Source of the DNA: an uncultured Pseudomonadota bacterium
Lineage (GTDB): Bacteria > Pseudomonadota > Gammaproteobacteria > Methylococcales > Methylomonadaceae
Assembly: GCA_903834465.1 (NCBI GenBank)
Contig: CAILJB010000003.1
Location: forward strand, 1 to 64,000
DNA length: 64,000 nt
Direction: 5' to 3'
This document shows, piece by piece, positions 12 to 2,668 of this stretch. The position numbers were made by a program, and so were the translations under genes. Below the pieces are notes generated by a model. The model made no database searches, was not told the DNA's origin, and worked only from the letters and a program-made list of their open reading frames with translations. Position 1 is the first letter of the stretch; each line of letters begins with the position of its first letter.

Positions 12-683
12 ATGACTAACGACAATAAAACACACAAAACATCTTCAACGGCTGATTTCTTTGCTAAATACAAAGACCCTCGCTGGCAGAAAAAACGGCT
101 TGAAGTTATGCAACAAGCTAGTTTTCGTTGTGAAAGTTGCGAATCTGATACGAAAACTCTCAATGTTCACCACAAGTCATACAAGAAAAATCGTAATCCG
201 TGGGAATATGAAGAACATGAATTGGAATGCCTGTGTGAAGATTGTCATAACGTAAAACACGAAGTAAAGAGTCGTCTGGATACTGTTCTTCATGATTTCA
301 AAACATTGAACTGGAGTAGCAAAAAACCAGAAGATGAACTTTTAGGTTTTTTGGAAGGAAGATTAGCCGATACCTTTTTAAATACTCGAACCTATGTAAT
401 TTCTCATGAATATTTGCAAGGTTATTGCTTTGCACATTTGTTAGATGCAGATGAAATTAACACAGACAGAAGACTTTATAACATTATTGAGGTTGCAGAT
501 GGCTGGCTCGAGTATGAGATGTTTGAGTGGGCATTCAAATCGCTACCCGTTGATGAGCAGTACGCTCAATATGCCCAAGAGAAAATTGAAACTAACAAAT
601 ATGCACATTATCCAGCTTGGATAATGTCAAAAATAACTCAGTACATAAATGAGGCATTCGCCCACTATAACAACTATTACTAA
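12..683 (+). CDS. HNH-endonuclease-like protein
   Basis: A 223-residue protein. Residues about 40-85 carry a zinc-bound HNH-like core: CESC, then VHH, then CEDCHNVKH, the C-x2-C / HH / C-x2-C-x3-H arrangement of small HNH nucleases. The remaining 130 residues are acidic and aromatic-rich and match no domain I recognise. Only 11 bases precede the ATG, so the upstream context is unknown. Codon use is AT-rich, with frequent AGA and ATA, unlike the aminotransferase downstream, which suggests acquired DNA. Whether it cuts DNA is inferred from the motif only; no methylase or restriction partner is visible. Confidence 0.6.
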   Translation: MTNDNKTHKTSSTADFFAKYKDPRWQKKRLEVMQQASFRCESCESDTKTLNVHHKSYKKNRNPWEYEEHELECLCEDCHNVKHEVKSRLDTVLHDFKTLNWSSKKPEDELLGFLEGRLADTFLNTRTYVISHEYLQGYCFAHLLDADEINTDRRLYNIIEVADGWLEYEMFEWAFKSLPVDEQYAQYAQEKIETNKYAHYPAWIMSKITQYINEAFAHYNNYY

Positions 684-726
684 ATAACTTTTTAGAACTG
701 TCCATTTTCAACATACATTTAAAACT

Positions 727-780
727 ATGACCTTTAGCATCGAAACCCTCTTAAACGAACACAGCAATGCCAGAAATTAG
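727..780 (+). other. Duplicated 5' fragment of the aminotransferase gene; 17-codon mini-ORF
   Basis: Bases 727-767 repeat bases 1289-1329, the first codons of the class III aminotransferase, with a single mismatch over 41 bp. The fragment still starts with ATG and encodes MTFSIETLLNEHSNARN before a TAG at 778-780. Its last 14 bases overlap the start of the DUF4160 gene (ATG at 767), so it could act as a leader coupled to that gene. It looks like a scar left when the DUF4160/DUF2442 pair entered at the head of the aminotransferase gene. Confidence 0.7.
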
Positions 781-1024
781 TCGATTTTTAGGAATCATTA
801 TTCGGATGTACCTTCGTGACCATCCACCCGCACACTTTCACGCAGAATATGGCGAATACGAAATCACGGTTGAAATTGAAACGGGCGTTGTAACGGGCAA
901 ATTTCCTCGACGCGCTTTAATGGTTGTTCTCGAATGGTATTTGCTACACAAAGAAGAATTGCTAAATAACTGGCAAGCCGCTATGAACAAAAAACCGTTA
1001 TCAAAAATAAAACCTTTGGAGTAA
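767..1024 (+). CDS. DUF4160 domain protein
   Basis: An 85-residue protein matching the DUF4160 family pattern: PEISRFLGIIIRMY, then DHPPAHFHAEYGEYE, then a C-terminal W/L-rich helix. Members are usually paired with a DUF2442 protein, as here (3 bp gap to the next gene), and such pairs are often listed as putative toxin-antitoxin-like modules without a proven activity. There is no Shine-Dalgarno sequence before the ATG; the start lies inside a 17-codon ORF left from the duplicated aminotransferase head, so translation may be coupled to it. Confidence 0.8.
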   Translation: MPEISRFLGIIIRMYLRDHPPAHFHAEYGEYEITVEIETGVVTGKFPRRALMVVLEWYLLHKEELLNNWQAAMNKKPLSKIKPLE

Positions 1025-1027
1025 TCA

Positions 1028-1258
1028 ATGTTTATTCACGTTACTGATGCAAAATATATTGAAGATTATCGCGTGCAACTTTCATTCAATGATGGTTCAA
1101 ACGGCGAAGTCGATTTAGCGAATGAATTGGATGGCGAAATTTTTGAGCCGTTAAAAGACAAATCTTTTTTTAAATCATTTGTCCTCGAAGGTCATACACT
1201 AAGCTGGAATAACGGGGCGGATTTTGCGCCCGAATTTTTAAAAGAACTTACTCACTAA
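1028..1258 (+). CDS. DUF2442 domain protein
   Basis: A 76-residue protein with the DUF2442 pattern: VTDAKYIEDYRVQLSFNDG, an acidic middle, and the closing stretch LSWNNGADFAPEFL. It follows the DUF4160 gene by 3 bp and is preceded by GGAG at 1018-1021, so the two form one unit. The pair sits between two copies of the aminotransferase gene head. DUF2442 proteins resemble NADAR/antitoxin-like partners in context only; no biochemical function is established that I can cite. Confidence 0.8.
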   Translation: MFIHVTDAKYIEDYRVQLSFNDGSNGEVDLANELDGEIFEPLKDKSFFKSFVLEGHTLSWNNGADFAPEFLKELTH

Positions 1259-1288
1259 TTTTAGATTTTAACCACTATAAAAATACTC

Positions 1289-2668
1289 ATGACCTTTAGC
1301 ATCGAAACCCTATTAAACGAACACAGCAACGACAAATTCGATTTGCACGAACAATTTTTAAATAACCAAATGGTGCGCGTTTTAAAAACCATTGGTTACG
1401 ACCGCCATTATAAAAAAGCGGTCGGACAATATCTTTACGACCAAGAAGGTACGGAATATCTCGATTTACTCAGCGGTTTTGGTGTGTTTGCCATCGGACG
1501 AAATCACCCAACGGTGATTGAAGCGTTAAAAGAAACGCTGACTTTAGAATTGCCGAATTTAGTACAACTTGACGTATCGATTTTGAGCGGCTTGCTGGCA
1601 AAAGAAATTCTCAAAACTACGCCTGAAAATTTAACCAAAATGTTTTTCTGCAATTCGGGAACAGAAGCCGTTGAAGCCGCGATTAAATTTGCCCGTTTCA
1701 CGACCAAACGCGACAAAATCGTATTCTGTGACCACGGTTATCACGGTTTAACGATGGGCGCGTTGTCGCTCAATGGCGAAAATATTTTCCGCGAAGGTTT
1801 CGGTTCATTATTGCCAAACTGCGAAGCTGTGCCATTCAATGATTTAGTTGCTCTCGAAAAAGCCTTGAGCCGCAAAGATGTTGCCGCATTTATCGTAGAA
1901 CCAATCCAAGGCAAAGGCGTGAATTTACCTGATGACAATTATTTGCCCGAAGTCGAACGCTTATGCAAACAATACGGTACATTGTTTGTTGCCGATGAAG
2001 TGCAAACGGGCTTAGGACGTACGGGGAAATTCTGGGCAATCGACCATTGGAACGTTCAACCAGATATGATTTGTATGGCGAAAGCGTTATCAGGTGGATT
2101 TGTGCCAGTCGGAGGCGTAGCGATTACCACAAAAATTATGGACACGGTTTATAACCGAATGGACAGAGCCGTGGTGCATGGTTCGACGTTTGCGAAAAAC
2201 AACATGGCGATGGCGGCAGGTTTAGCCACATTGCACGTTATGCACGATGAGAATTTAGTCGAAAACAGCTTAAAAATCGGCAGTGACATCATTAACAATT
2301 TGAACGCCATGACCAACCGCTACGAATTGCTCAAAGAAGCTCGCGGCAAAGGAATGATGATTGCGATTGAATTCCAATCGCCAAAAAGTTTAAAACTCAA
2401 AGCAGGTTGGGCAATGCTCGAAGCGGCAAATAAAGGTTTGTTCTGTCAAATGGTGACAATTCCATTATTCAAAGAACATCATATTTTGACTCAAGTCGCA
2501 GGACACGGCATGAACGTAGTGAAATTATTGCCGCCGCTTAATTTAACCCAAAAAGACCACGACACCATTATCAGCGCGTTCGATAAAACCATTGGCGAAA
2601 CGCACAAAATGGGTGGCGCAATTTGGGATTTAGGGAAAAATTTAGCCAGCCATGCGTTAAAAAAATAA
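1289..2668 (+). CDS. Class III PLP aminotransferase (possibly HpnO-like)
   Basis: A 459-residue fold-type I aminotransferase of subgroup III. Visible motifs are NSGTEAVEAA (122-131, phosphate binding), the DEVQTGLGRTG signature (236-246) and the Schiff-base lysine in MAKALSGG (Lys265). The family includes acetylornithine, diaminobutyrate and putrescine aminotransferases. In methanotrophs a protein of this length could also be HpnO, which aminates hopanoid side chains, but no hopanoid gene is nearby, so the substrate is open. The start codon has no clear ribosome-binding site and now lies 30 bp behind the DUF2442 gene. It converges on ubiB. Confidence 0.8.
   Translation: MTFSIETLLNEHSNDKFDLHEQFLNNQMVRVLKTIGYDRHYKKAVGQYLYDQEGTEYLDLLSGFGVFAIGRNHPTVIEALKETLTLELPNLVQLDVSILSGLLAKEILKTTPENLTKMFFCNSGTEAVEAAIKFARFTTKRDKIVFCDHGYHGLTMGALSLNGENIFREGFGSLLPNCEAVPFNDLVALEKALSRKDVAAFIVEPIQGKGVNLPDDNYLPEVERLCKQYGTLFVADEVQTGLGRTGKFWAIDHWNVQPDMICMAKALSGGFVPVGGVAITTKIMDTVYNRMDRAVVHGSTFAKNNMAMAAGLATLHVMHDENLVENSLKIGSDIINNLNAMTNRYELLKEARGKGMMIAIEFQSPKSLKLKAGWAMLEAANKGLFCQMVTIPLFKEHHILTQVAGHGMNVVKLLPPLNLTQKDHDTIISAFDKTIGETHKMGGAIWDLGKNLASHALKK

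Follow-up and report, generated by a model that had tools for sequence, protein, structure and literature searches.

Near its start, the stretch of DNA analyzed here carries a toxin–antitoxin cassette standing between a truncated and an intact copy of the 5′ end of a host gene. This stretch (the window, 64,000 bases, positions 1–64000) is the beginning of contig C3 (68,119 bases) of genome G000, a 2.8-Mb assembly of 135 contigs belonging to a genus of apparent methane oxidizers; G, C, and L numbers are our labels for genomes, contigs, and loci. The host gene is a class-III aminotransferase that we take to be hpnO, an identification made by context from its synteny with hpnN, and the cassette, a DUF4160/DUF2442 pair, is placed within a hopanoid-lipid operon. 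The same structure recurs, both at hpnO and at further genes, with varied cassettes, and this wider pattern is of more interest than the single case. The explanation that we put first, and hold with about even confidence, is that the cassette was added by recombination with the DNA of relatives, anchored by homology, and left a truncated gene end acting as a coupled leader. The features of the locus are as follows.

12–683, plus strand: HNH-like nuclease gene, 223 aa, neighbor in the cassette array (weak family matches and tblastn synteny)
718–726, plus strand: hpnO-like 5′ context TTTAAAACT, preceding the truncated head (comparison of upstream regions)
727–767, plus strand: truncated hpnO head copy, 41 nt, ~14 codons (40/41 to 1289–1329)
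727–780, plus strand: 17-codon leader open reading frame (ORF) MTFSIETLLNEHSNARN* (translation only; 14-nt overlap with the DUF4160 start)
767–1024, plus strand: DUF4160, DhiT-type toxin, 85 aa (PF13711, 72.6 bits)
1028–1258, plus strand: DUF2442, DhiA-type antitoxin, 76 aa (PF10387, 43.6 bits)
1259–1288, plus strand: cassette–hpnO junction (29/30 bases the same in G001)
1289–1329, plus strand: intact hpnO head (repeat comparison)
1289–2668, plus strand: class-III aminotransferase hpnO, 459 aa, intact (PF00202; synteny with hpnN in relatives)

The agreement of the two head copies at 40 of 41 bases, already given in the preliminary description of this DNA, was recomputed; the single difference, C/A at 750/1312, is silent, and ungapped extension lengthens the repeat to 46 nt at 93% identity. 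The upstream copy comprises the first ~14 codons of the aminotransferase, its last base being the first of the DUF4160 ATG, and the intact gene restarts after DUF2442, both as previously described. The insertion had also been placed exactly at a start codon, which is correct for the start codon of DUF4160 and incorrect for that of hpnO, whose head continues for 41 nt before the joint is reached. The reported 17-codon leader was found as well, its stop ending 14 nt inside DUF4160. When the 41-nt head was compared with the reverse complement of up to 6 kb of upstream DNA at 80 hpnO loci, the best match reached 25/41; the 40/41 repeat is therefore not a chance match. The TTTAAAACT bases ahead of the truncated head are also found ahead of the left copies in G014 and G008, and their context is similar to the regions upstream of hpnO in G008, G011, and G015.

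By its domains and gene order, with the DUF4160 toxin gene followed by the DUF2442 antitoxin gene as in the DhiTA type II layout, the pair is assigned to the type II toxin–antitoxin systems of DhiT/DhiA type, although its matches to the equivalog models (NF048015 DhiT, E-value 5.9e-21; NF048016 DhiA, E-value 1.3e-10) fall under the model cut-offs. The HNH-like gene has weak matches only (DUF7562, below cut-off, and the ZorE, PtuB, and IscB models), and its relatives in G003, G001, and contig C71 of G000 also lie directly 5′ of DUF4160 (tblastn). No transposase or integrase was found by Pfam among 19 cassette proteins, three of which had no match at all; inverted ends were not looked for. For the aminotransferase itself, none of the 25 NCBIfam matches listed attained the cut-off of its model; on contig C71, HpnN and squalene-hopene cyclase are identified by TIGR03480 and TIGR01507, respectively.

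Comparison with relatives bears out the earlier proposal of an insertion that spared the host gene, since in the outgroup genera G019 and G022 hpnN is followed after ~10 bp by hpnO, with no cassette and a single head. Within the genus, the hpnN–hpnO gap holds varied cassettes: the HNH-like gene and DUF4160/DUF2442 in G000 and G003, the same in G001 after two further small genes, DUF4160/DUF2442 only in G009, a HARE-HTH protein (geneX) in G005 and G013, a predicted methyltransferase (read from the sequence) in G010, and other genes in G004. In G011, G014, G002, and G015, hpnO has other neighbors, standing behind geneX or behind a second gene, geneY (G002 L031, G015 L029, G011 L026, G014 L027); because no hpnN occurs within the stretch examined at these four loci, hpnO or its upstream array appears to have moved. 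At L018 (G016), ~80 bp between hpnN and hpnO are similar to the 3′ end of geneX as in G013 and are probably the deletion remnant of a lost cassette. The first 41 nt of hpnO are identical in G001, G003, and G004, the whole gene differing by 10–12%; the head may have been homogenized through cassette traffic or kept for translation start. Finally, the end of C71 carries a second HNH–DUF4160–DUF2442 set beside hpnN that retains just the last part of the head, and C71 and C3 may be either tandem or strain variants. The DUF2442 of this second pair (L044, 12740–13199, at the contig end) contains an in-frame TAA, because of which this antitoxin copy looks broken.

Had the DUF4160/DUF2442 module carried the hpnO head with it, as first suggested, the head should accompany the module; what we found is the upstream copy without the pair in two genomes, an outcome that the preliminary description itself had named as refuting. 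With up to three mismatches allowed, the head pattern occurs at 13 places in 18 genomes of the genus, namely 10 hpnO starts and three extra copies (G000, G014, and G008), and the reversed pattern has no match in the same genomes. In G014, the genes behind the extra copy encode an EcoRV nuclease (PF09233), a D12 methylase, and an OLD-like AAA/TOPRIM protein, and in G008 the extra copy precedes, at a contig end, the first codons of a gene that by eye is of similar EcoRV type. Sixteen identical nucleotides of the head also precede DUF4160 in G003, and the joints at hpnO fall at varied points, 16, 41, and 47–48 nt into the gene. A search for upstream heads at 80 named hpnO loci gave matches above chance only at L059 (= G014) and L063 (= G003), confining the pattern to the genus in this set, in which several loci have little upstream sequence (e.g., 200 bp at L060). 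In G011, geneX directly abuts hpnO, and the left copy in G014 preserves that junction (..CCTAACCTTTTAAAACT-ATG), with genes farther upstream differing between the two genomes; the left copy in G014 thus looks like the hpnO start in its former place, to which the cassette and the upstream region of the complete gene would have been added. These comparisons indicate that the head copy is independent of the DUF4160/DUF2442 module. As DUF4160 pairs bear different repeats elsewhere, and cassettes of different kinds are found with one and the same repeat at a given site, the repeat belongs to the site and not to the cassette.

DUF4160 is found in all 18 genomes of the genus, with 2–16 matches each, including one long protein with the domain. 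To survey its flanks, we used 60 stretches from the listed matches (the last entries and most of the long open frames being excluded), ~785 kb of G010, and the hpnO loci, which together gave 76 DUF4160 ORFs, 74 with usable flanks. A direct repeat between the 110 nt located 5′ of the cassette and the stretch 3′ of it, with a score of at least 18, was present in 28 of the 74 cassettes. The controls gave 1.6% of 2177 comparisons with right flanks of other sites, 0/69 with far-left sequences, 1/74 with the reversed right flank, and 5/74 inside genes, four of the latter at loci that hold two or more DUF4160 ORFs. Because three of the 28 matches (L181, L184, and L222) resemble terminator hairpins and others are orthologous sites (L194/L196/L197, L168/L169/L170, and L203/G010 C3), independent sites number fewer than 28. 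The repeats include heads of the next gene and tails of the previous one, others being untranslated or of unclear origin, and among the gene ends that can be recognized are an hsdS-like head (L187), hsdS-like tails (L005, L204, and L208; hsdS read from the protein), the tail of geneY (L168–L170), and the head of a repeat-rich MTTPTT gene (L215, G010 C24, and L219). Copies of the 5′ end of the following gene, which the preliminary description had suggested looking for around DUF4160 pairs, thus do occur; they derive from quite different genes, and tails are found as well as heads. In the phylum outside the genus, repeats were found at 2 of 28 usable DUF4160 loci (29 loci read, from 47 genomes with a match), against a null of 0/756 at the same score. 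The two loci, L290 (G097) and L296 (G042), have repeats of ~45–55 bp, located +320 and +855 beyond the end of the cassette.

We also counted copies of gene ends irrespective of the cassette in 1320 genes (1.32 Mb, partly chosen around DUF4160). Copies without similarity of the gene bodies numbered 11 for heads, 6 for tails, and 2 for each of three mid-gene windows; with body similarity, that is, for paralogs, the numbers were 9, 8, and 5 each. The excess of gene-end over mid-gene copies is modest, because some head pairs were counted from both sides, one pair consists of two DUF4160 paralogs, and one tail is CRISPR-repeat-like. A first listing of repeats, with 2912 direct and 4 inverted matches, was set aside and its ratio not used, as most direct matches are repeats within genes. 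The head of a G004:C32 gene without Pfam match (MTNTENLYSNIR...) is copied before the same small ORF in G004 and G014, followed in G004 by a PIN toxin, and before a different small ORF in G005; no copy was found within 1.5 kb in G003, and G001, G008, and G009 show too little sequence. At L172 (G011:C158, minus strand), head and tail pieces of an FkbM methyltransferase gene are joined, once as a 40-codon ORF, and repeated between apparent MazF-like, HepT/MntA-like, and DUF4160/DUF2442 cassettes. At L215 (G009:C89, 3017–4178), one gene head (MTT...) occurs in three copies, one forming a 7-codon leader ahead of a DUF4160-like gene, one fused in frame to a VapB-like antitoxin, and one belonging to the intact repeat-rich gene. 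The genus seems to hold many such scars, with defense cassettes stacked on ordinary gene ends through recombination among related species.

Chosen head-type joints further share a leader like the one at hpnO. Taking as cut-off a stop ending at most 15 nt from the cassette start, all 12 of these joints qualify, their leader stops lying from 13 nt before to 14 nt after that start, against an expectation of 5.0 with randomized phase; when each independent site is counted once, the chances multiply to ~9 in 10,000. Such stop positions would fit coupling by termination and reinitiation.

Two sets of comparisons bear on where the added DNA came from. From the HNH-like gene to DUF2442, C71 shares 1100/1132 bases (97%) with G001; because hpnN is only 81% identical between them, and hpnO 88.7% between C3 and G001, the sequences show a recent interspecies transfer of the HNH–DUF4160–DUF2442 module on the hpnN side of the locus. 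The second set concerns geneY, a gene of ~1240 aa, weakly oxidoreductase-like and present in 16 of the 18 genomes. Among the 14 carriers examined (G002 and G015 were left out), tail copies number four in G004, three plus a 247-codon copy with an indel in G003, three in G009, and two each in G005, G012, and G001; the tail is single in G000 C91, G010, G007, G013, G016, G006, G011, and G014, some of these near contig ends, and the short G000 contig C4 contains further pieces. The copies reach 1.6 kb, with joints at internal points of the gene. At L322 (G004:C110), geneY is followed by three cassette blocks, one with an AAA protein, one of Mrr/ResIII type with AAA, and one with DUF4160/DUF2442, each terminating in a geneY 3′-end copy. 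Two G004 copies, of 469 and 538 codons, are open and lie on the same contig as the intact copy, from which they differ by a synonymous divergence (dS) of 0.42 and 0.43, with nonsynonymous to synonymous ratios (dN/dS) of 0.075 and 0.058; for six between-species pairs of intact geneY, dS is 0.24–0.46 and dN/dS 0.03–0.08. In the geneY tree, these two copies do not group with the intact G004 gene. Since a local copy of the target would begin identical and then decay, they look like alleles of other species and not like local duplications.

In the scenario we put first, a type II DUF4160/DUF2442 cassette would have been added between hpnN and hpnO from a related species in which it was joined to that donor's own hpnO. 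One end of the incoming DNA, which may have entered by transformation, would have been anchored by hpnO homology, and the other joined non-homologously within the resident hpnO, 41 nt past its start. The product would read, in order, resident upstream DNA, truncated hpnO head, cassette, and intact hpnO; the retained head could then serve as a leader through which the cassette is translated by termination–reinitiation coupling. We infer this combination of an anchor with an illegitimate end from the other sites, and apply it to hpnO by analogy only, because the hpnO copy is too short to decide. Such an event is proposed for serial additions to the immunity-gene arrays of the type VI secretion system of Vibrio cholerae (PMC5361080), and homology-facilitated illegitimate recombination is reported from three species with natural competence, as well as from Escherichia coli during conjugation (PMC3240628).

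Several observations weigh against this scenario. The leader joints were hand-picked, the 15-nt cut-off was set post hoc, and the independent cases number ~8; two in-frame fusions with an antitoxin or similar protein (L215 at 3540 and G010 C24 at 81.3 kb) were excluded, and the repeat at L172, which lies directly 5′ of DUF4160, no longer has its ATG, and has acquired an early stop, is uncounted. As to geneY, the 247-codon G003 copy (dS 0.36) is nearest its own intact gene, with a weak grouping (80/93), and a 138-codon G000 piece is nearest its own gene (95.9%, dS 0.18), as expected of a local duplication; no such closeness is seen for a further G000 piece (347 codons, dS 0.42), and 12 of the 18 inner branches of the tree lack resolution. 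Many short repeats are identical or nearly so (30/30 at L186, 77/80 at L168), and the hpnO copies (16–48 nt), which differ at 1 base within G014 and at 4 between the left copies of G014 and G008, are too short to separate foreign from local origin. Sliding identity shows no clear breakpoint inside hpnO, where G000 and G001 pass from 91–97% to 83–89% identity after ~480 nt and G000 and G003 show a similar drop. Competence genes are uninformative, as ComEC occurs in 16 of the 18 genomes of the genus, yet also in 10 of 14 control genomes.

A more general proposal, which we regard as tentative and somewhat doubtful, is that the ends of ordinary genes act as addresses in this genus. Defense and toxin–antitoxin cassettes would pass from species to species attached to a copied gene end, and general recombination would add them at the matching gene time after time; arrays like those of integrons would build up with no integrase involved, and the leftover ends would stay as coupled leaders providing expression of the new cassette. 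Toxin–antitoxin and restriction modules are mobile, yet often lie outside known mobile elements, and a scheme in which gene ends supply the address and ordinary recombination drives the process would, if correct, explain how such modules build up inside operons without breaking them. The process would be readable from the sequence, the scar recording the gene, the amount, and, when long, the source lineage; and the host-gene leader might let a cassette without start signals of its own be expressed at once.

The strongest competitor, which we judge unlikely, is a transposition-like insertion with long target duplication, in which tens to hundreds of bases of the recipient target are copied, as described for restriction–modification systems of Helicobacter pylori (PMC3874152, PMC1643837, PMC3031569). 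It gives the same outline of the product, with long variable repeats and restriction–modification genes among the cassettes, and the direct target repeats it requires flank the insert here as well as the 28 surveyed cassettes; the near identity of the short repeats (96–100%) and the weak grouping of the G003 geneY copy with its own gene also speak for it. However, the two long G004 geneY copies have diverged like alleles of other species and bear the mark of purifying selection, and Pfam recognizes no transposase or integrase among the 19 cassette proteins scanned. The target duplication suggested in the preliminary description, if meant in the transposon sense, is therefore improbable where it is best testable.

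Recombination between flanking repeats might instead free the cassette as a circle with one copy of the gene end, which RecA would reinsert at that gene end in another cell to give the order repeat–cassette–repeat. This would account for heads and tails, the variable length of the repeats, stacking, and the occurrence of different cassettes at one address; however, no circle has been seen, the initial non-homologous joining would still be required, and repeats of 16–45 nt are short for RecA, so that we consider this route distinctly improbable. Local tandem duplication by unequal crossing-over, or an assembly error, is very unlikely. Plain paralog arrays do exist at L189 and L186, and the window begins at the end of C3, in a stretch common to C71; but the repeated head comes from a gene other than the cassette, and flanks and cassettes vary among genomes. 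An assembly duplication in particular is unlikely as the source of the head repeat because the two copies are differently flanked within one contig and similar copies recur in other assemblies. A site-specific recombinase using 5′ gene ends as its att site, as in the recombinase-driven insertion of SXT at prfC and of dusA islands, would regenerate the host gene head behind the insert as observed, but can practically be dismissed since the repeats vary by site, tails are used too, the copies range from 16 bp to 1.6 kb, and the Pfam-scanned cassette proteins include no integrase.

Among known systems, the recombinase islands are marked by a fixed att site and an integrase, in place of which we found variable joints and, in the 19 cassette proteins scanned with Pfam, no integrase. 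Integron arrays are also made of stacked small cassettes, many of them toxin–antitoxin pairs, separated by repeats, but there the repeat, attC, is borne by the cassette, whereas here it is a copy of the local gene end and several separate sites exist per genome; judged from the repeats, with no attC model run, a recombination site traveling with the cassette was not found. In titles and abstract openings, with few subscription papers covered, we found no toxin–antitoxin cassettes flanked by copies of host gene heads. DhiTA activity is reported in Dickeya and E. coli (PMC8198452), and a Thermus DUF4160/DUF2442 pair raises plasmid persistence, its second gene seeming to neutralize the first (PMC12724237); the order, with the toxin gene DUF4160 before DUF2442, is the same as here; in those relatives function was assayed, and the scores of the present pair are under the equivalog cut-offs. 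Long target duplication of restriction–modification genes, as described for Helicobacter (PMC1643837, PMC3031569, PMC3874152), shares long variable direct target repeats and restriction genes in the cargo; peculiar to our sites are the two foreign-looking long geneY copies, the many toxin–antitoxin pairs, the stacked arrays, and the leader ORFs. The V. cholerae arrays (PMC5361080) are alike in their serial modules beside a conserved region, remnants of displaced genes, alleles of other strains, and absence of a known integrase. They differ in that the cargo here consists of toxin–antitoxin and restriction or other defense-like genes, and in that the anchors here are ordinary genes, at several sites per genome, with the host genes kept intact and both heads and tails left behind.

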